A stretch of DNA of 64,000 nt from Candidatus Melainabacteria bacterium (lineage in GTDB: Bacteria; Cyanobacteriota; Vampirovibrionia; Obscuribacterales; Obscuribacteraceae). Position numbers and translations under genes: made by a program. The DNA lies in NCBI GenBank assembly GCA_017307165.1, contig JAFKGK010000005.1:124001-188000 (forward strand), in the 5' to 3' direction. The notes under the pieces are model-generated. The model was not told where the DNA came from, did not search any database, and saw only the letters and a program-made list of their open reading frames with translations. Below, piece after piece: positions 32,749 through 42,745 of this stretch. Numbering within the stretch: the stretch's first letter is position 1; the number at the start of each line of letters is the position of its first letter.

Positions 32749-33714
32749 TCATGGCTGAGACGCAAATCGTGATGATCTGACTTCGGCCAGTCTATTCAAA
32801 AGACTGGCCAGGTGAGCGGGATCCTTCATGTAGTATTGCGCCTGACTCTCACCGGGGGGCCCCACTTTAAGGCTTATGCCACCTGCCTGATTGACCCAGG
32901 CAAAGGCTGGCTCATCGCCATCGCTGTCTCCAGCAAAAAAGAAAAGCCTGCTTTTGGCCTTTTCTCTGGACTGTTCTTGTCCATTTTCCTTGGTGCTTTT
33001 TTCTTGTGCGGCTTCCAGGTCGATCTGCGCTGCCGATTTGAGATGTATCTGACTGTCGGCCTTAGGATGAATTGCTTGTCCGTAGAGCCTTTTCGTGATC
33101 GCTTCCAGCGCGAGACCCTTGTGGAAGGTAACACGCGGCAAGACCTCATAGCTGGTAGGTTGAGCCGCAAAAACAAACTCACCATGGCGCCTTTCGACAG
33201 CCTGGACTCGTGCATGAACCTCATCCAAAAGCTCGGCTGGAGTGCAGTGATAGTGCAGGCAAAGAGTAAATTGATGATCTTCAAAAAATAATGCGTATCG
33301 CATATCACTTGCGATTTCTAATAGCTCTTTTTTTACTGCTCCTAGATTGCTTGCTTGTGCTGCTGCTCCAGCATCCACGTCGACTTTGCCCTTATTGTTG
33401 GCATATTCGATCTCGAGGCCGTAATTGCCTGCCAGAGTAAAGGGAAATGATCCAAAATCGCCCCGTAGCATGCGTAAAGAACGTGCCGAGACGATGGCGA
33501 TGTCGGTGTCCGGGATATCGGCAAGTCGATTGAGTGCTGCCAGACTGGCTGGATATACTGGAGCCAGATTAGGGTCGGATGCGATATTGGATATGGTGCC
33601 ATCGCGGTCGAAGGCCATCAATAATGGACGATCTGAGATCGTGTCGACCAGCAGGTCTATCAGTGGATCTCTAGCAATCTCGATCTTTTTATTTATTTGC
33701 TCTTGCGTAGACAT
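32749..33714 (-). CDS. otsB: Trehalose-6-phosphate phosphatase
   Basis: 321 residues of the HAD-type OtsB family: catalytic motif MAFDRDGTIS (Asp residues at about 35 and 37), IVSARSLRMLRGDFG, LAGNYGLEIEY, and the metal-binding FAGDSDGDEPAF near the C-terminus. A charged, Gln/Glu/Lys-rich insertion of about 35 residues (about 225-260) interrupts the cap-to-core junction and is not usual. The enzyme dephosphorylates trehalose-6-phosphate to trehalose, the second step after OtsA. Its start overlaps the GT4 gene end by 26 bases, so they are translationally coupled. Confidence 0.93.
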   Translation of the reverse strand: MSTQEQINKKIEIARDPLIDLLVDTISDRPLLMAFDRDGTISNIASDPNLAPVYPASLAALNRLADIPDTDIAIVSARSLRMLRGDFGSFPFTLAGNYGLEIEYANNKGKVDVDAGAAAQASNLGAVKKELLEIASDMRYALFFEDHQFTLCLHYHCTPAELLDEVHARVQAVERRHGEFVFAAQPTSYEVLPRVTFHKGLALEAITKRLYGQAIHPKADSQIHLKSAAQIDLEAAQEKSTKENGQEQSREKAKSRLFFFAGDSDGDEPAFAWVNQAGGISLKVGPPGESQAQYYMKDPAHLASLLNRLAEVRSSRFASQP

Positions 33715-34798
33715 TGGACTTCTCGTTTTGTTTTGGCGCCGCGCCTACGAGCTTTTGATAGACAGCCTCATAGGCATCGGTCATGGCTTCCTTGCTAAAG
33801 TTTTTTCTCACTCTCTCGACACAGTCGCGGGCCTTGATGCTCAGGACTTCAGGAAAACGCTCGACCATCTGGGCTTCTGTTTCGACTACCAATCCGGTGA
33901 CACCGTCCTCAATCAATTCGGGCACTGATCCACGTTTAAATGCTACTACAGGAGTGCCTGATGCCATCGACTCGGCCATCACCAGACCAAAGGGCTCTTC
34001 AAAGTCTATTGGATAAATAGTAGCGATGGCGTTTGCCAATAAGGCTTTCTTTTGCTGATCGTCGACTTCGCCGATGTACTCGATTTTGTAATCGCCAAAA
34101 TCACCAAGATGAGGTGCGACTTGCTCTTGATAATAGGCTTCGTCGGCTGGGTCTACCTTACCGGCTATCTTGAGAGTTCGTTTGAGTGCACGCGCCACTC
34201 TAATGGCTTCGGCAGTGCCTTTGTCCTGGCAGATACGACCAAGAAAAACCAGATATTGTCGATCGGCGGGATCTTTTAGTTCGGATGTCTCATACAAGTC
34301 GAGATCGATGCCATTGTATACAGTGGCAACATAATTGAGCTCGTCAGGATGATTGAGCCTGCGATAAGCATTAGAGATAGAAATGTACGGCATGTGTTTG
34401 TATGTGAGATAGATGTCCAGGCAATAATCCTTGACGGGATTATGATTGGTCGATACCACGGGCACGTCTAGCTGATCGAGAAAGGGCAGGGCTTGCCAGC
34501 CCATATGATTGTGGATGATATCGTATTGCCCAGCCATGCTCTTGAGTTTGAGCAAGGCCCTCTGGTCGTACGCCTGCCAGCGTCTCATCGGGATCTCGGT
34601 GGCCAGGCGTAGTGCCCTGTCGCAAACAGAGACCAGTTTGGCCTTTGTAATCGAATCACCAGAGGCAAATAGGGTGACATCATGACCACGTTGGACTAGT
34701 TGTTCCGTAAGCAGACTCGCCACAAGTTCTGTGCCGCCATAACCCTTAGGCGGGACGCTTTCGGTCAGTGGTGCAAATTGTGCAATACGCAGTTTCAT
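33689..34798 (-). CDS. GT4-family glycosyltransferase
   Basis: 369 residues with the two-domain GT-B layout. N-terminal part: RIAQFAPLTESVPPKGYGGTELVASLL (glycine-rich acceptor loop PPKGYGGTE), then VVSTNHNPVKDY. C-terminal GT4 donor domain: LVFLGRICQDKGTAEAIRVA, YIGEVDDQQKKALLANA and PFGLVMAESMASGTPVVAFKRGSVPELIEDG with the E-x7-E motif. No signal peptide. Its place between otsB and the glucosidase suggests a role in glycan or trehalose metabolism, but donor and acceptor are unknown. GGAG precedes the ATG at 34798. Confidence 0.92.
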   Translation of the reverse strand: MKLRIAQFAPLTESVPPKGYGGTELVASLLTEQLVQRGHDVTLFASGDSITKAKLVSVCDRALRLATEIPMRRWQAYDQRALLKLKSMAGQYDIIHNHMGWQALPFLDQLDVPVVSTNHNPVKDYCLDIYLTYKHMPYISISNAYRRLNHPDELNYVATVYNGIDLDLYETSELKDPADRQYLVFLGRICQDKGTAEAIRVARALKRTLKIAGKVDPADEAYYQEQVAPHLGDFGDYKIEYIGEVDDQQKKALLANAIATIYPIDFEEPFGLVMAESMASGTPVVAFKRGSVPELIEDGVTGLVVETEAQMVERFPEVLSIKARDCVERVRKNFSKEAMTDAYEAVYQKLVGAAPKQNEKSNVYARANK

Positions 34799-34819: not shown

Positions 34820-37018
34820 CTAGTTTTCGATGATGACTTTGATGGTGCCGGTTTTTTTTAGGATACGGCAAGAGGTCATGCCATCCGAGCATTGAAAGGA
34901 CAGATCGAGGGTGGCATTGCCGATCCTCAGACCACGAATGACAACATTGGACAGCCAATCCGGCAGGGCTGGTTCGACGATCCTGACTTGGTTTTTGAGG
35001 GCGTCTGGTTCGATATTGAGGCAAGCCTTTAAAAGCTGAAACATGGTGCCGGCGGCCCAGGCTTGAGGCGAGCATGATACCGGGTATTCGATCGGCGGAG
35101 CCGAACCAGTGCGCTGGAAGCCGCAAAAGAGCTCTGGCAATCTAAAATCAGTCTGGCACTGTGCCGTCTCGAACATCCCCTTCATCACTTCGTGCATTTC
35201 ATTGATAAAACCCTGCTTACGCAGGCCCTCGGCAATGATGGCATTGTCGTGCGGCCAGACCGAGCCATTGTGATAGCTAATGGGGTTGTAAGACCTCTCC
35301 TGCTCGGAGAGAGTCCTGATGCCCCAGCCGGTATTGAGCTCCGGGCTCATCAAGCGCGCTGCCACCATATCGGCCTTGGGCTGGTCGAGGATGCCGGTCA
35401 GGAGGCAATGACCTGGATTGGATGATAGGGCCCCAACTTGCTTGGCCTCGCCATCCAGTGCAATGCACAGATATTGGTCTTCTTCCATCCAGTAGTCTTT
35501 GTTAAATCTTGCCTTGAGCTCGTCGGCTGTTAGATCCATTTCGCGTGCGTATTCTTGATTGCCCAGGATGGCTGACAATTTGGCCATTTCGCGGGCCGCC
35601 ATGTAGTAATAGGCCTGTGCTTCGCAGATGGCTATGGGCGGATTGGCGAGACGGCCGTCTTTGTGCATGACCGAGTCTCCCGAGTCCTTCCATCCCTGGT
35701 TTTCGAGGCCTTCTTCGGAGATGCGGCGATAGTAGAGATAGCCATTGCCGGCAGTGGCAGTGCTTGCCAGCCACTGCATGGCCTTTTGTGCATTGGGCCA
35801 GTATTTGTTGGCAAAGTCCAGATCACCAGTCCAGTGTACATAGTGGCAATAGAGCATGACCCAGAGTTGGGTGGCATCTACGGTGCCAAAATAGGGAGAG
35901 TGCGGGATTTTTTTAATACGCGCCAATTCGCCCAGGCGCAATTCGTGCATGATGCGTCCAGGTTGTTCGGCGGTAAAGTCGTTTGTCTCGACTCCTTGAT
36001 AGGCGGCCAAGACCTGGAGGCACTCACGCGCAAGATCAGGCGAGAACGGTAGCATTTGCCAGGCTGCTATGGCCGAGTCCCTGCCAAATACTGCCGAATA
36101 CCAGGGGATGCCCGCTGCCAGTCCATAGCCGTTTGGTGTCGCCTGTCTAAGGATGTAGAGATCGCGCAGTCCACGCTTGAGACTGAGGTCAAATAATTCG
36201 TTGTCTGTGCGGATACGACAGGTCTTGCTGGCCCAATCTGCATAACCCTGCCTGGCCAACATCAAGGCTGATTCAAAGTCAACTTCTGCCGGATCATGCT
36301 CGACCTCTTTTTTATCCATGCGAGTAGCGATGCGCATCTCAAATGTAATGGATTGGCGCACCGGTATCTTGATACGAAAGTGCACCTCGCCATCATGGAT
36401 GCGATCCGGCACGATGTCTTTAAACTCTACGGTCGTCTCCATCAAAATGCCGTCGAGACCTTTGTAGGCGAGATAGAGCTTGTGCCCGCTCTTGGAAGCG
36501 GCCGGCATCATGCGCTCACCACGGGTGGTGAGATTGAGGCCACGGACTTCGAACATATCGGCAAAGTCTGACTGCATCGATATGGCAAAATCAAACTCGA
36601 CAGGTTCGTTGTGAAAGTTTTCAAAGGTCAATCTCTCGAAAAGCATGTCGTGCAGTACTACTTCTCGCAGGACAGTGACTTTTTGCTGTGGTAGATTGCC
36701 GATTTGAGGATTTGTATAGAGCAGCCTGGCTGCATACCCTTCATCGATAGCCGTGGACAATAGTGAAATTGGACTGCCTTCGATAAACATTTCAAACTGG
36801 CTTATATAGCGCGTATCGTTACGATAATAACCATAGCCCAGATTGTTGCAGGCCGGCATGAAGGCCGATCTATCCAGGACGAGAAAATGTCCGTGGTGCT
36901 TTAGCACTAGGCGCGGGTGAGCAGCATCTGTCAAGACGAAGGGCAGGCCCTGACAAAGAGGTCTGACGTCAATCTCGTATTGATGGTCGTCCGTAAGTAC
37001 AGATTGCGATTCCGACAT
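34820..37018 (-). CDS. Amylo-alpha-1,6-glucosidase-like glycan debranching enzyme
   Basis: 732 residues. An N-terminal beta domain typical of bacterial debranching-type proteins (FLVLDRSAFMPACNNLGYGYYRNDTRYISQF, cited as GYYRNDTRYISQFEMFI) is followed by an (alpha/alpha)6 catalytic barrel with AAGIPWYSAVFGRDSAIAAWQML, EQPGRIMHELRLGEL, DSGDSVMHKDGR and YHNGSVWPHDNAIIAEGL. Conserved acidic residues in W-x-x-x-D and G-S-V-W-P-H-D are those expected of the glucosidase family. It hydrolyses alpha-1,6 branches of glycogen or an unknown glucoside. It sits in an apparent operon with GT4, otsB and ROK genes. Confidence 0.9.
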   Translation of the reverse strand: MSESQSVLTDDHQYEIDVRPLCQGLPFVLTDAAHPRLVLKHHGHFLVLDRSAFMPACNNLGYGYYRNDTRYISQFEMFIEGSPISLLSTAIDEGYAARLLYTNPQIGNLPQQKVTVLREVVLHDMLFERLTFENFHNEPVEFDFAISMQSDFADMFEVRGLNLTTRGERMMPAASKSGHKLYLAYKGLDGILMETTVEFKDIVPDRIHDGEVHFRIKIPVRQSITFEMRIATRMDKKEVEHDPAEVDFESALMLARQGYADWASKTCRIRTDNELFDLSLKRGLRDLYILRQATPNGYGLAAGIPWYSAVFGRDSAIAAWQMLPFSPDLARECLQVLAAYQGVETNDFTAEQPGRIMHELRLGELARIKKIPHSPYFGTVDATQLWVMLYCHYVHWTGDLDFANKYWPNAQKAMQWLASTATAGNGYLYYRRISEEGLENQGWKDSGDSVMHKDGRLANPPIAICEAQAYYYMAAREMAKLSAILGNQEYAREMDLTADELKARFNKDYWMEEDQYLCIALDGEAKQVGALSSNPGHCLLTGILDQPKADMVAARLMSPELNTGWGIRTLSEQERSYNPISYHNGSVWPHDNAIIAEGLRKQGFINEMHEVMKGMFETAQCQTDFRLPELFCGFQRTGSAPPIEYPVSCSPQAWAAGTMFQLLKACLNIEPDALKNQVRIVEPALPDWLSNVVIRGLRIGNATLDLSFQCSDGMTSCRILKKTGTIKVIIEN

Positions 37019-37030
37019 AGCGGTCCCTTT

Positions 37031-38263
37031 TTAGGAAGTTTTGCTGTTGCGTGCTTCTCTATCTTTGCGTTGGGAGCCTTTGAGAGGTGGCAGGATATTT
37101 TCGAGAGACAGGCCAAAAAGCGCAGCGCCATATGATTCTGCACCTCTATCCATGACCGATTTTTGTATGATTGGCTGGATCAGAGCTGCATTATTGTTTG
37201 TTTTTTTGAGGAGCTGCCTAGTGGTCAGATCTGCTCTCGGTAAGAAAGATCCGTGATTATCCGGCAGATAACCTGCGAGGATCAGCCTGCTTGGACCAAT
37301 AATATTGATCAGGCTGGCCAGCCCATAGGCCACGCCGTCGGCGGCCAGATCGAGCAGATCGATTGCAATAGGGTCTTTTTTACTAGCCAAGATAACCAAC
37401 TCATCCAGGGTTTCAACTGCAAGACCGGCTTTTCGAGCGTTGCTTAAGAGCATCGGCTCTCCCGCCAGTTCATTGATTGAGACACCGCTCATGTCGGATG
37501 GTTCCCACAGCCTGGCTAGTGTTGCGTTTTGCATTGGGAAAATTAATTCACCTAGGTTGCCGCCCATTTGAGAAAACTGGTTGAGAAAGGCGTTATTTTG
37601 GAGAAAAGTCACGCGTAGATTGTGGCCGATCCGAACGAAGGCCAATAGCTCGTCCTCGCATTCTGCTTGCTCAGCATGCGTTTCGGCTAAGGCGGCCATC
37701 TCGATATTGGTAGCCAAGGCCAGTTTACGACCAAAGTGACCCTCGAGCATGGTGACGAGCGGAGCAAAGCGGTCAGGGGCAGCCTTATTTTGACGATCGC
37801 TTCCTGTGATGTGCAAAGGTCCAGGGAGTGCCAGAGTAATGGCATAGATGCGCCTGAAGTCCGAGTGCGTACGCAAAATCTGCTCGAGCAGCTTGATTAT
37901 GGCTGCTTGTCCATCCAGGTCTATAGCCTTGTAAACCACCTGCTGGCTGGCCAATTGCCGGCCGTTCAAATCGCATAGGGATATTTGGGCTCGATTGTCC
38001 TCTATCGATATGCCGATCGAAGTCTTGCTATTGGGCTTAAAATTGAGCCCAATTGGCTTACGTCCCCTCAGGCTCGTTTTTGATCCTGATTCTTCGAGGA
38101 TCTTGAGGCCGATCAATTCGTCGACGATGCTGGATACAGTGGCCCTTGCCAGATCGACCTCACGGGAGAGGTCCGCTCTAGACACGCCTGGCTTACGCCT
38201 GACCACGTCCAGGATCATTTGCGCGTTGCGACGCCTCATTTCTACAAAGCTTGGACTGGTCAT
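37031..38263 (-). CDS. ROK-family transcriptional regulator with degenerate sensor domain
   Basis: 410 residues. N-terminal winged helix (about residues 8-70) with MRRRNAQMILDVVRRKPGVSRADLSREVDLARATVSSIVDELI, cited as LSREVDLARATVSSIVDEL. The remaining ROK domain has kinase-like glycine patterns, but the family zinc motif C-x-C-G-x-x-G-C and the conserved His before it are absent (here GGNLGELIFPM). It is therefore a regulator that may not bind zinc or phosphorylate sugars. It heads the minus-strand operon and is divergent from otsA; the palindrome at 38331-38349 is its likely operator. GAGAAG precedes the ATG. Confidence 0.88.
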   Translation of the reverse strand: MTSPSFVEMRRRNAQMILDVVRRKPGVSRADLSREVDLARATVSSIVDELIGLKILEESGSKTSLRGRKPIGLNFKPNSKTSIGISIEDNRAQISLCDLNGRQLASQQVVYKAIDLDGQAAIIKLLEQILRTHSDFRRIYAITLALPGPLHITGSDRQNKAAPDRFAPLVTMLEGHFGRKLALATNIEMAALAETHAEQAECEDELLAFVRIGHNLRVTFLQNNAFLNQFSQMGGNLGELIFPMQNATLARLWEPSDMSGVSINELAGEPMLLSNARKAGLAVETLDELVILASKKDPIAIDLLDLAADGVAYGLASLINIIGPSRLILAGYLPDNHGSFLPRADLTTRQLLKKTNNNAALIQPIIQKSVMDRGAESYGAALFGLSLENILPPLKGSQRKDREARNSKTS

Positions 38264-38312
38264 GCTGTTATCTTCTCAGAAAAGTCATCCATCAAACAGG
38301 CCGCCAGCGCAA

Positions 38313-38341
38313 ATTCTTGCCATTGTTCATTTGTTTGACAA
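38313..38341 (-). promoter_or_regulatory. Possible minus-strand promoter for the ROK operon
   Basis: TTGTCA (38341-38336) and AAGAAT (38318-38313) are 17 bases apart on the minus strand, a fair sigma-70 match, about 50 bases before the ROK gene start. Its -35 box also lies inside the palindrome, so both divergent promoters could be controlled together. Confidence 0.4.
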
Positions 38342-38349
38342 GTAAACAA
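38331..38349. promoter_or_regulatory. Candidate ROK operator palindrome
   Basis: TTGTTT and AAACAA arms separated by 7 bases (38331-38336, 38344-38349). It covers the -35 box TTGACA of the otsA promoter and that of the minus-strand promoter. Similar A/T-rich TTxTTT/AAAxAA palindromes bind NagC/Mlc-type ROK regulators; the assignment is inference. Confidence 0.55.
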
Positions 38350-38362
38350 TACATGATATATT
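38335..38362 (+). promoter_or_regulatory. Sigma-70-type promoter of otsA
   Basis: TTGACA (38335-38340), 16-base spacer, TATATT (38357-38362) with an upstream TG at 38354-38355 (extended -10). It would start transcription near 38369, leaving a leader of about 130 bases before otsA. Confidence 0.65.
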
Positions 38363-38496
38363 GGTACTTAGGGACATATCGAAATATCAGCCGAAACAAA
38401 CTGAAAGGTTAATGGTGTAGAGTCTCTTTTACATCAAATTTCAAGATCAATTTTTTGGCAGTGGGCTCGACTCGCAAGAGTGGATAGGAGACCAAA

Positions 38497-39882
38497 ATGC
38501 ACTTAGTCACGTACCGCGGGCCTTCAATGGCTGGCGGTGTATCCGGCGCTTTTTCTTCTTTATGGCAAAATTTTGCGCAAGCGCAGGATTTTAATGCCTG
38601 GACCTACCTCGTCGATGATGAGGTAGTAGAGATGAGAAAGGCTGATGACGCCAAGGCTTTACTTGGTTGCATACCGGCCGAGATCCTGGACGGACATTAC
38701 CGATTTTGCAATCTGTTTATCTGGCCGGTCATGCATGATATGGGCCAGAGGGCGCATTATGCGGCTTCGGATCGTACGGCTTTTCGATCTTTCAATCGGC
38801 TTATCGCCGATTGTCTCTTTCGCAAAGGGTTCAGGAAAAAATTTGCGCAAGAACGCGAGATGCAATTTGTGCAAGACTATCAATTAGCCCTATTGCCCGC
38901 TCTAGCCCAGGATTATGGTTTTAACAGCACTCTGTTCTGGCACATACCCTGGCCTAAGGAGGTCCAGACATTGCATGTGCCACCGCTGGTGGAGATAGCT
39001 ACTGCATTGCTCGCCGCTGACACCATAGGCTTTCATACTCAAGAATACGCTCACAACTTTCTGCAATTTGTCGATAAATATATTCCCGAGCGCTCAGTCA
39101 ATCTTCGCTCAGGCAAGTGGAGATCATTTCCCGCTGTGGTGGCCAGGCCTTTGGGCATCGATAATAGCGGCTGGCAAAATGCTGCGATCAGTGGCGGCAA
39201 CTTTATGCATCCGGCGCTAGAGCATGTCAAAGGCAAAAAGATCGTGCTATCTGTAGATCGAGCTGACTATACAAAAGGCGTTTCCGAGCGTATGCAGATG
39301 ATATCGACTTTTGCGGAGCGATATCCCGATCTTTCACAAAATGTCGTTTTCGTGCAGATCTGTACACGCACACGTGCTGGTTTGCCGGCCTTTGACGATT
39401 ATTGGGAGCGACTCGAGTTTAGGGAGCAACAGCTTGCAACTCGCAAAAACGATCTTCTGGTGTGGTTGAAAGATCCCATCGATCCTGCTCAATTAGCTTT
39501 ATTGTATAAGCGCGCTGACGCCATGCTGGTTACGCCCCTGCGAGACGGGCTCAATCTCACCGCAAAAGAATTTGTCCTGTCGCAGGCACCGCATGCGATG
39601 ACTCTGCAAGGCAAGGCCCCCGCTCCGCTTTTGCTCAGTCCAGGTGCTGGCGTCTTTAACGAACTCGGTCGTTACAGCATCGCCGTGGATCCCATTGATG
39701 ATATCGATATGGCTGATTCTGTTGCTTACGCCCTGGGTATGGATGATCGCGAAAAGACCAATAGGCATCACCGTTGCGTTGCAGCTATGAGCAAGCATAC
39801 CTTGACCGATTGGTGGAATTATTTTGCAGCCATAAATAATTTTAGGAACCGTGACATCAGGCCCTCGTCTGTGTCTACATGA
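38497..39882 (+). CDS. otsA: Trehalose-6-phosphate synthase
   Basis: 461 residues of the GT20 family. It transfers glucose from a nucleotide-sugar to glucose-6-phosphate. Seen: N-terminal glycine loop RGPSMAGGVSGAFSSLW, then DYQLALLPALAQ, HIPWP, IGFHTQEYAHNFL, the phosphate/nucleotide site VLSVDRADYTKGVSERM, VFVQICTRTRAG and the C-terminal DGLNLTAKEFVLSQ. Length matches bacterial OtsA. AGGAG lies 7 bases before the ATG. It ends in ATGA overlap with the mscS-like gene, so trehalose synthesis and the channel are made together. otsB lies on the opposite strand. Confidence 0.94.
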   Translation: MHLVTYRGPSMAGGVSGAFSSLWQNFAQAQDFNAWTYLVDDEVVEMRKADDAKALLGCIPAEILDGHYRFCNLFIWPVMHDMGQRAHYAASDRTAFRSFNRLIADCLFRKGFRKKFAQEREMQFVQDYQLALLPALAQDYGFNSTLFWHIPWPKEVQTLHVPPLVEIATALLAADTIGFHTQEYAHNFLQFVDKYIPERSVNLRSGKWRSFPAVVARPLGIDNSGWQNAAISGGNFMHPALEHVKGKKIVLSVDRADYTKGVSERMQMISTFAERYPDLSQNVVFVQICTRTRAGLPAFDDYWERLEFREQQLATRKNDLLVWLKDPIDPAQLALLYKRADAMLVTPLRDGLNLTAKEFVLSQAPHAMTLQGKAPAPLLLSPGAGVFNELGRYSIAVDPIDDIDMADSVAYALGMDDREKTNRHHRCVAAMSKHTLTDWWNYFAAINNFRNRDIRPSSVST

Positions 39883-41051
39883 ATCCCGCACAACGCAACC
39901 TGCTTCAAGAATTTTTTGATATCTGGAATTATCCTCTTTTGGCTCTTCGCGAAGACTCGCTGACCATTGGGGGACTGGTCCTGCTTCTAGTGCTTGGATA
40001 TTTGCTGTTCCGCTATGGTCCCAAGTGCAACAGTCATCTTTTGCGTTTCATTCAGGGTAAGGTGGTCATTCCGGCAGAGTATCGTAAGGGTATAGTGCGG
40101 GTGACGCGCGCCCTTGTCTTTATCGCCGGTGCTTGTTTGATCGTCAAGATAGCAAAAATCGATCATTTTATTTTTGGTCAGATCAACGAGCTTTACGACA
40201 CCGTGCATGGGATGTTTGATCTGAAGCTCTTCAAATTTGGCAAGACCGATATCACGCTCTGGGCTTTGACCTATCTAATGGTATCATCCCTGGTGCTGGT
40301 TCGTGGTGCCTCTGCATTCAGGCACTGGCTCGGCGTGAGGGTGCTAGCACGCACCAAGATGCAAGCTCAGGCTCAATACGCAGTTGGTGCCAGTGCTCAG
40401 TATGTCGTTTTGTTTTTGGGCTTTGTCGTCTTGCTGCAGAGTGCAGGTATAGATCTCAGCGCTATCACCGTGATGGTCGGTGCGCTCGGTATCGGTTTGT
40501 CTTTTGGCTTGCAACAGATCACAAACAATTTCATCTGTGGCCTCATTCTGCTATTTGAAAGGCCAATTCGCATAGGCGACAAGGTGCAGGTATCCGATGT
40601 CGTCGGCACGGTACAAAATATTTCTCTCAGGGCCACTACTATCATCACCGGCAAAAACATTGCCGTGCTGGTGCCCAATGCCGAGTTTATCACTGCCAAG
40701 GTCCAAAACTGGACCCTCAATAGTAATTATATTGCCGTCAATCTGCCATTTAACGTAGACAGCACGCGCGATCCGCAGGCCATCGCCGATGATATCAAGG
40801 CCTGTGTCGCCGAGCATCCTGGAGTCAGCCGGGAGGCCGAAACCAGGGTCTTGTTCGAGGAAATCTCAGGGAGCAAGTGCAAGTTTAATGTGATCGTCAA
40901 TACCGAAAAGTATATAAATGACCCCGATCAATTGCGCTCGGATCTATTGCTTGCCTTGACCAGGAGATTTAAAAAGCCTGAGAATAAAAATAAGCCCAGC
41001 AATATAGTTATCCCCTTTGCAGCCAGCATTGAGTCTCCGACTTCACTCTAA
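39879..41051 (+). CDS. MscS-family mechanosensitive channel
   Basis: 390 residues. About five hydrophobic segments in the first 230 residues: LTIGGLVLLLVLGYLLF, ALVFIAGACLIVKIA, LWALTYLMVSSLVLVRG, ASAQYVVLFLGFVVLLQSAG, and the pore helix SAITVMVGALGIGLSFGLQQITNNFICGLILLF with the Gly/Ala-packed pattern of MscS. The cytoplasmic beta domain follows (RIGDKVQVSDVVGTVQNISLRATTI, PNAEFI). The channel relieves turgor on hypo-osmotic shock. It overlaps otsA by 4 bases, so the operon pairs osmolyte synthesis with its release valve. Confidence 0.93.
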   Translation: MNPAQRNLLQEFFDIWNYPLLALREDSLTIGGLVLLLVLGYLLFRYGPKCNSHLLRFIQGKVVIPAEYRKGIVRVTRALVFIAGACLIVKIAKIDHFIFGQINELYDTVHGMFDLKLFKFGKTDITLWALTYLMVSSLVLVRGASAFRHWLGVRVLARTKMQAQAQYAVGASAQYVVLFLGFVVLLQSAGIDLSAITVMVGALGIGLSFGLQQITNNFICGLILLFERPIRIGDKVQVSDVVGTVQNISLRATTIITGKNIAVLVPNAEFITAKVQNWTLNSNYIAVNLPFNVDSTRDPQAIADDIKACVAEHPGVSREAETRVLFEEISGSKCKFNVIVNTEKYINDPDQLRSDLLLALTRRFKKPENKNKPSNIVIPFAASIESPTSL

Positions 41052-41162: not shown

Positions 41163-42077
41163 ATGGGAAGTGGCGGCGTAGGTGGATTATTTGGCGCTCG
41201 TCTGGCCGCCAGCGGCGCTGATGTGCGCTTTATTGCTCGTGGTAGGCACCTGGCAGCAATCAAACAAGATGGGCTTATCGTCGAGAGCGAGCATTGCGGG
41301 GATCTCAAGCTCGCGGTAGAGGCAACCGACGACCCCGGCCAGGTCGGACATTGTGATTATGTCCTGTTTTGCGTAAAACTCTGGGATACCGAGGCAGCAT
41401 GCCAGGCTATCGCCCCGATGGTCGGCAAAATGACCACCATTATTTCCTTTCAAAACGGCATCGAACGTGACCAGATATTGCAGGATGCCTTTGGTGCCGA
41501 CAAGGTAGCAGGCGGCATCAGTTATGTAGCGGCTACTATCAAGCAACCGGGCGTCATCACGCAAAAAGGCCATGTCCAAAAACTGGTCTTTGGCGAATAC
41601 TCGGGTGAGCAATCATCGCGACTATTGCGTTTTGCCGATGCTTGCCGATCTGCCAACATCGAAGTAGAGATGCCGGCTGATATCCGGCAGGCTCTCTGGT
41701 ACAAGTTTATCTGCCTGGTGGCTATGAGCTCCATGACCGCCGCTACTCGGCTACCGATCGGACCAGTTAGAAATAATGCCAAGACGCGCAGTCTGACTCG
41801 CAAAGTTATGGAAGAAGTAAAGGCTGTAGGATTGAAGAGTGGAGTCTCACTGGAATCAGACATAGTCGATCGCCAAATGGCCTATCTCGATGGCCTGGCC
41901 GCCGATGTCACGGCATCCCTGGAGTATGACCTGCGTACTGGCAACAAACTTGAACTACCTTATCTAGCAGGCTATGTCGTCGAGCTTGGCGACCGTCTAG
42001 GAGTCGATACTCCCAGCTTGGATACCATCTGTGCCTTGCTCGATCCATATGTAGATGGGCGACCGGTAATCGCATAA
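41163..42077 (+). CDS. 2-dehydropantoate 2-reductase family protein
   Basis: 304 residues from the ATG. Rossmann motif GSGGVGGLFGARLAASG, then VRFIARGRHLAAI, FCVKLWDTEAACQAI, TIISFQNGIERDQIL (N-G with Asn in the catalytic region), and a helical C-terminal domain with AMSSMTAATRLPIG and TSLEYDL-like pattern ASLEYDLRTGNKLE. The fold and motifs match PanE (ketopantoate reductase, NADPH). The ATG removes the first beta strand: codons for K-I-A-I lie in frame just upstream, and AAAGG sits 7 bases before an ATA at 41130, so the real start may be non-standard. Ends 1 base into the response regulator gene. Confidence 0.82.
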   Translation: MGSGGVGGLFGARLAASGADVRFIARGRHLAAIKQDGLIVESEHCGDLKLAVEATDDPGQVGHCDYVLFCVKLWDTEAACQAIAPMVGKMTTIISFQNGIERDQILQDAFGADKVAGGISYVAATIKQPGVITQKGHVQKLVFGEYSGEQSSRLLRFADACRSANIEVEMPADIRQALWYKFICLVAMSSMTAATRLPIGPVRNNAKTRSLTRKVMEEVKAVGLKSGVSLESDIVDRQMAYLDGLAADVTASLEYDLRTGNKLELPYLAGYVVELGDRLGVDTPSLDTICALLDPYVDGRPVIA

Positions 42078-42745
42078 TGAGCACTAGCGAGATCAATAAC
42101 AAAATCAAGATAATGCTGGTCGAAGATCACCAGATAACTCGGATTGGTTTGCGCTGCTCACTCGAAGTGATCGAGGATTTTGAGATTATCGCCGAAGCCG
42201 AAGACGGCAAATTAGCAGTCGCAAAAGCTCAGGAGCTTTATCCTGATGTCATTCTGATGGACATAGGCCTGCCTGGATTGAGTGGCATCGAGGCTGTCAA
42301 GGCAATCAAAGGAGCGGGCAAGGCGATCAAGATACTCATGCTTACTTCGCACGAAAGGTCCGAGGATGTGTATGCGGCCCTGTCGGTCGATTGCGATGGA
42401 TATTGCCTCAAAGACATTGATACCGTGCAATTGTCGGCAGCGATTCGTGCTGTGCACAATGGAGGCGTCTGGCTTGATCCAGGCATCGCCAAGCATGTGG
42501 TCAAGGGGCATTTGAAGGTCGGACCGGCAAAGGAAAAGGATTCTAGCAATGATGCCGGTCTTTCCGAACGCGAGCTCGAGGTGCTGAGCCTGGTTGTCGA
42601 GGGAATGAGCAATCAGGAGATAGCAGATAGGCTTTTCGTCAGCGCCGAGACTGTCAAGACGCATATGAGGCACTTAATGGAAAAATTGGCGGTGAGCGAT
42701 CGCACCCAGGCGGCCGTCAAGGCCTTACGTGAAGGTCTGGTCTAA
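42077..42745 (+). CDS. NarL/LuxR-type two-component response regulator
   Basis: 222 residues. Receiver domain (about 10-125) with the phospho-acceptor Asp in DVILMDIGLPG (about residue 60), acidic pair VEDHQ, the switch residue in LMLTSHERSEDV and Lys in GYCLKDID. A LuxR helix-turn-helix follows: LSERELEVLSLVVEGMSNQEIADRLFVSAETVKTHM (cited as GMSNQEIADRLFVSAETVKTH). No histidine kinase is seen beside it. The ATG overlaps the stop of the PanE-like gene by one base, so the two are co-translated; regulatory target unknown. Confidence 0.93.
   Translation: MSTSEINNKIKIMLVEDHQITRIGLRCSLEVIEDFEIIAEAEDGKLAVAKAQELYPDVILMDIGLPGLSGIEAVKAIKGAGKAIKILMLTSHERSEDVYAALSVDCDGYCLKDIDTVQLSAAIRAVHNGGVWLDPGIAKHVVKGHLKVGPAKEKDSSNDAGLSERELEVLSLVVEGMSNQEIADRLFVSAETVKTHMRHLMEKLAVSDRTQAAVKALREGLV

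Follow-up and report, generated by a model that had tools for sequence, protein, structure and literature searches.

A candidate ROK repressor operator overlapping the divergent promoters of a trehalose synthesis locus in Obscuribacterales

Genes of the locus

The window, which is the whole stretch of 64,000 nucleotides of DNA that was analysed, contains an intergenic region (38264-38496) that divides a leftward ROK-GDE-GT4-otsB group from a rightward otsA-mscS pair. The leftward genes, all on the reverse strand, encode a ROK-family repressor (37031-38263; Pfam ROK 2.7e-11 and HTH_24, with an N-terminal winged HTH) and, according to Pfam, a GDE_N_bis / MGH1-like glycoside hydrolase (GDE, 34820-37018), a GT4 glycosyltransferase (33689-34798) and the trehalose-6-phosphate phosphatase OtsB (32749-33714), which is also above the cut-off of TIGR00685. 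These genes are separated by gaps of 12-21 nt or overlap, and we infer that they are co-transcribed. On the forward strand, the gene of a GT20 trehalose-phosphate synthase-like protein (otsA, 38497-39882; Pfam 7.5e-58) shares an overlap of 4 nt with that of an MscS-type mechanosensitive channel (39879-41051; Pfam). The Pfam results bear out the gene order of the original prediction, in which ROK, a glucosidase, GT4 and otsB were set opposite otsA-mscS.

TIGR02400 is the best family for the otsA protein, yet its score is below the equivalog cut-off. Since this strict cut-off was missed, the product was assigned from its family and from the otsB gene in the neighbouring operon. The genome of the window (G000) is a 4.6 Mb draft, which was compared with 49 other genomes of the family, and it encodes three otsA-like GT20 proteins (C27:162497, C11:138693 and C33:75334). 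At the otsA-paralogue locus L056, the other genes of the window cluster were not found nearby by tblastn.

Concerning the regulator, the protein has the N-terminal winged HTH and the ROK domain of a ROK-family repressor (HTH_24 at 12-51 and ROK at 83-381 in Pfam), and both are present in its AlphaFold2 model (pLDDT 81). Its matches in the PDB are ROK regulators, with 1z05, 1z6r and 5f7p-5f7r as solved relatives, and the closest NCBIfam models are NagC (5.4e-19) and Mlc (3.9e-17), both far under the cut-off. The alignment with eight other HTH-type ROK proteins revealed that the window ROK carries GNLGEL where the others have G(E/Q/D)xGH, and that it has lost the CxCGxxGC zinc cluster, which is kept, as is the ExGH histidine, in all eight. 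The loss of the ExGH and zinc motifs makes ordinary sugar sensing less likely, and family membership is less affected by it. Judging by the model, the window ROK appears to be functional in DNA binding and to have a modified sensor site.

The palindrome and its overlapping promoters

The TTGTTT-N7-AAACAA palindrome, TTGTTTGACAAGTAAACAA, is present at 38331-38349 as originally claimed, its symmetry is real, and it is the single exact occurrence of this pattern in the 4.6 Mb genome. When one mismatch at most was allowed, 22 genome sites were found versus 13 for the reversed control. The pattern is thus hardly enriched and was dropped as a genome-wide motif. Of the near-matches elsewhere in the same genome, the one inspected (C1:98322) lies inside a gene and was rejected as a further site. 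When a window-like 18-mer was searched across the family with two mismatches, G000 and G025 gave exact matches and all else was at chance level.

A weight matrix was built from the sites of the relatives, leaving out the window site. With this matrix, the 25-mer starting at 38326 scored 18.6 bits and the runner-up in the 64 kb scored 9.5 bits; among 20,000 dinucleotide-shuffled versions of the intergenic region, 18.6 bits were matched or beaten in 0.03%. The 25-mer centred on 38340, which is the centre of the N7 palindrome, scored -25 bits. Therefore, the candidate operator, TTCATTTGTTTGACAAGTAAACAAT, is placed at 38326-38350 (25 bp) with its dyad centre at 38338. The proposal that the palindrome is an operator stood in that the 25-bp family palindrome overlaps it, but the width and the register had to be corrected, the centre of the N7 palindrome being 2 bp off that of the family operator. 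The N7 palindrome arises from the repeated TTTG of the half-site, the inner copy on the left being paired with the outer copy on the right.

Compared with the family consensus TTAGTTYGTTTGNCAAACRAACTAA, the window operator presents six mismatches in 24 positions, mostly in one half, and the XylR-type 25-bp inverted repeat TTAGTTTGTTTG-N-CAAACAAACTAA is likewise present with 6/24 mismatches. The surroundings of 80 related glycosidase genes (1.25 Mb in total) contain only two other places at which the window score was attained, one in G060, whose site was part of the matrix training, and one in G025, whose site is independent of the matrix.

The strong extended -10 promoter predicted for otsA, with its TTGACA inside the palindrome, was confirmed on the forward strand at 38335-38362 (-35 TTGACA, 16 nt, extended -10 TGATATATT; 11/12). 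This TTGACA-16-TATATT arrangement, with TG before the -10, is the top promoter-like match in 11 kb. The promoter facing ROK is also present, on the reverse strand at 38313-38341 (-35 TTGTCA, 17 nt, -10 AAGAAT), and its -35 overlaps the operator as proposed, but it is weak (9/12).

The same arrangement was seen at other sites. In 10 of the 12 sites, offset 9 of the 25-mer is where a -35-like hexamer (TTGACA, TTGTCA, TTGCCA or TTGACG) starts, and a -10 follows after a spacing of sixteen or seventeen bases; as background, a promoter of any kind occurs at 5% of random positions. In three sites, those of the window, of G025 (ROK/ClC) and of G014 (ROK/DUF389), the offset-9 -35 is found on both strands and, hence, the dyad core TTTGACAAA corresponds to a pair of back-to-back -35 elements.

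Conservation in relatives and competing explanations

The comparison set consisted of the eight other genomes of the family (Obscuribacterales) with an HTH-type ROK, out of 50 family genomes in total. Many other ROK matches start near position 80 without an HTH, look like kinases and were not counted. Conservation of the palindrome in relatives, which had been named as a check, was observed in the form of the 25-bp family palindrome, located upstream of the HTH-ROK gene in six of the eight relatives. These six sites reached 19.9 to 39.5 bits with a matrix leaving out their own genome, and the relatives' sites show 0-4 mismatches to the consensus, with one at 6. The window ROK presents 26-32% identity with the other ROK proteins, so its site is compared here with those of distant homologues and not of close orthologues.

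Across the 50 family genomes, eight sites with three or fewer mismatches were found versus none in the reversed control, and seven of them are in ROK-positive genomes. Moreover, four of the five site-positive genomes are among the nine with an HTH-ROK (Fisher probability of about 0.0025, own arithmetic). In G060 the operator is present and an HTH-ROK was not found, this genome being 88% complete. Clusters of otsA-GDE-GT4-otsB without ROK are common in the family, and no site was found between their otsA and GDE genes.

The recognition helix follows the distribution of the site. LA[KR][AS]TVS is common to the window ROK and the six relatives with the site, and the two relatives without it have LSPATVS (G020) and LSPASIT (G034), with upstream scores of 0.1 and 8.1 bits, respectively. 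As far as the aligned proteins and upstream regions indicate, this covariation is the one expected of a protein-operator pair. C-terminal remnants of ROK were also observed beside second operator copies, at about 13821-14018 of L092 (G025:C110:62820-63017) and at G066:C136:26747-26911; they are decayed duplicates of the regulator.

At the level of sequence, these comparisons establish the candidate site, its register, its conservation across ROK homologues, its overlap with the -35 elements and the recognition-helix covariation. Very probably, the ROK repressor encoded next to the site uses it as its operator: the 25-bp palindrome at 38326-38350 is of the XylR type, its core is the -35 of both divergent promoters, and through it ROK would repress both of them and itself. 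The original view of an operator overlapping the two divergent -35s is supported by the upstream 25-bp palindrome of the relatives, with the same -35 offset. The operator core TTTGACAA would double as the -35 of the otsA-mscS promoter, and its opposite strand, TTGTCA, would be the -35 of the ROK-GDE-GT4-otsB operon. When bound, a ROK dimer would bar RNA polymerase from the two promoters until an inducing signal released the dimer. Since the core is a pair of back-to-back -35s, polymerase exclusion would be the simplest mechanism, and the repressor, being encoded by the leading gene of one of the operons, would regulate itself.

ROK could also bind the site and control essentially its own operon, with otsA-mscS being independent and little affected. 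This is unlikely: the sites of the relatives nearly always precede the ROK operon and the gene on the divergent side differs between them (ClC, DUF389 or none), which would agree with it, but the otsA promoter is far stronger and takes its -35 from the operator core, and there is an extra site before GDE in G025. It is highly improbable that the palindrome is a chance word in an AT-rich promoter and no binding site at all. TTGACA with flanking runs of T and A does yield partial symmetry, and, with one mismatch allowed, the N7 pattern shows hardly any enrichment in the genome; the relatives' matrix, the shuffles, the -35 offset and the recognition-helix covariation argue against chance. Finally, LuxR-type proteins bind palindromes and a LuxR-type response regulator is encoded close by (42077-42745), but regulation by it or by some other regulator is scarcely credible and was rejected because the motif tracks HTH-ROK genes across genomes with differing gene neighbourhoods.

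Possible regulon and comparison with known systems

With the adjacent ROK as the preferred candidate for binding the operator, the genes behind the relatives' sites may give an idea of its function. They are a HEAT/LRV-repeat gene together with ROK, ClC chloride channels, DUF389, a hemerythrin protein and a conserved short protein. In G025, a second GDE copy of the trehalose cluster has an upstream site sharing the ACTTGTCAAACAAA variant of the window. Another site in this genome has a ROK remnant and is separated from otsA by about 8 kb; it lies next to a Na+/H+ exchanger and to a homologue of a Na+/Ca2+ exchanger found in G060. In G014, ROK is 4 kb from otsA. The operator of G060 (L091:7292; G060:C19:101291) precedes DUF389 and is 3.6 kb from otsA-GDE-GT4-otsB.

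Since the relatives' sites lie before ClC, DUF389 and hemerythrin genes, the regulon looks osmotic or ionic and not catabolic, and otsA-mscS fits this theme of osmotic and ionic balance. From the gene company in relatives, the osmotic or ionic state is more likely as the signal of ROK than a sugar to be eaten. Trehalose or trehalose-6-phosphate, suggested earlier as effectors, found no support, given that the window ROK is without the sugar/zinc motif and that the relatives' sites precede ion-transport and not sugar-catabolism genes; either is a possible ligand. No ClC and no DUF389 were found in G000 itself, so the target of the window ROK may be this locus alone.

Some other genes were observed near the sites. 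A short protein with no Pfam match and the motif GGKMWYALSS adjoins the ROK operator in three genomes (L057:13906-14433, L091:6722-7219 and left of 8775 in L183) and is likely a member of the regulon. A HEAT/LRV-repeat-like gene, labelled by Pfam in L058 and by sequence likeness in L057 and L062, immediately precedes ROK in three genomes (L057:7051-7899, L058:9134-9640 and L062:11916-12290), apparently in one operon with it. A KaiB-like gene (L183:8104-8469; weak NCBIfam match) is beside the operator-GDE pair of G025.

In textbooks, ROK repressors control the uptake and breakdown of sugars. The window ROK, by contrast, is placed at genes for trehalose synthesis and a mechanosensitive channel, and the ROK of relatives at those for chloride channels and DUF389. 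In the literature searched, no ROK regulator was found for trehalose synthesis with osmotic stress. A tentative and rather speculative scenario is that a ROK repressor was turned into an osmotic or ionic stress switch in Obscuribacterales (ClC, DUF389 and hemerythrin, with trehalose synthesis and the mechanosensitive channel in the window), that the window ROK, its sugar/zinc site lost, senses otherwise, and that the operator core acts as back-to-back -35s. The 25-bp motif offers a ready, testable regulon for this lineage without genetics, and the locus would be a clean example of an operator dyad core serving as the predicted -35 of both divergent promoters.

Among known systems, Mlc and NagC share the HTH and ROK domain with the window protein. 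They are regulated by a PTS component or by GlcNAc-6-P, and they keep the zinc motif, unlike the window ROK. In Thermotoga maritima, TreR is a ROK repressor of trehalose genes that is autoregulated within the treTR operon (PMC3750489). TreR and the window protein are both ROK repressors tied to trehalose genes; however, TreR governs trehalose uptake and use and responds to trehalose, whereas the window has otsA, otsB and a mechanosensitive channel. No trehalose transporter was found among the called genes adjoining ROK, and instead of the TreR-type link to a transporter or a catabolic enzyme, the window ROK is linked to the synthesis genes otsA and otsB.

The xyl operator of B. subtilis, to which the ROK protein XylR binds, is an experimentally defined 25-bp inverted repeat, TTAGTTTGTTTGGGCAACAAACTAA (PMC12034463), and the family consensus is nearly identical to it. 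XylR is a ROK-family repressor with an N-terminal HTH that blocks transcription (PMC12034463), as the window ROK would do. Nevertheless, XylR governs xylose use, whereas the targets in the window are trehalose synthesis and MscS; xylose genes are not among the neighbours of the window ROK (otsA, mscS, GDE, GT4 and otsB), which also differs from XylR in being without the ExGH and zinc motifs. Furthermore, the core of the xyl operator, GGGCA, is no -35, whereas the core of the window operator is.
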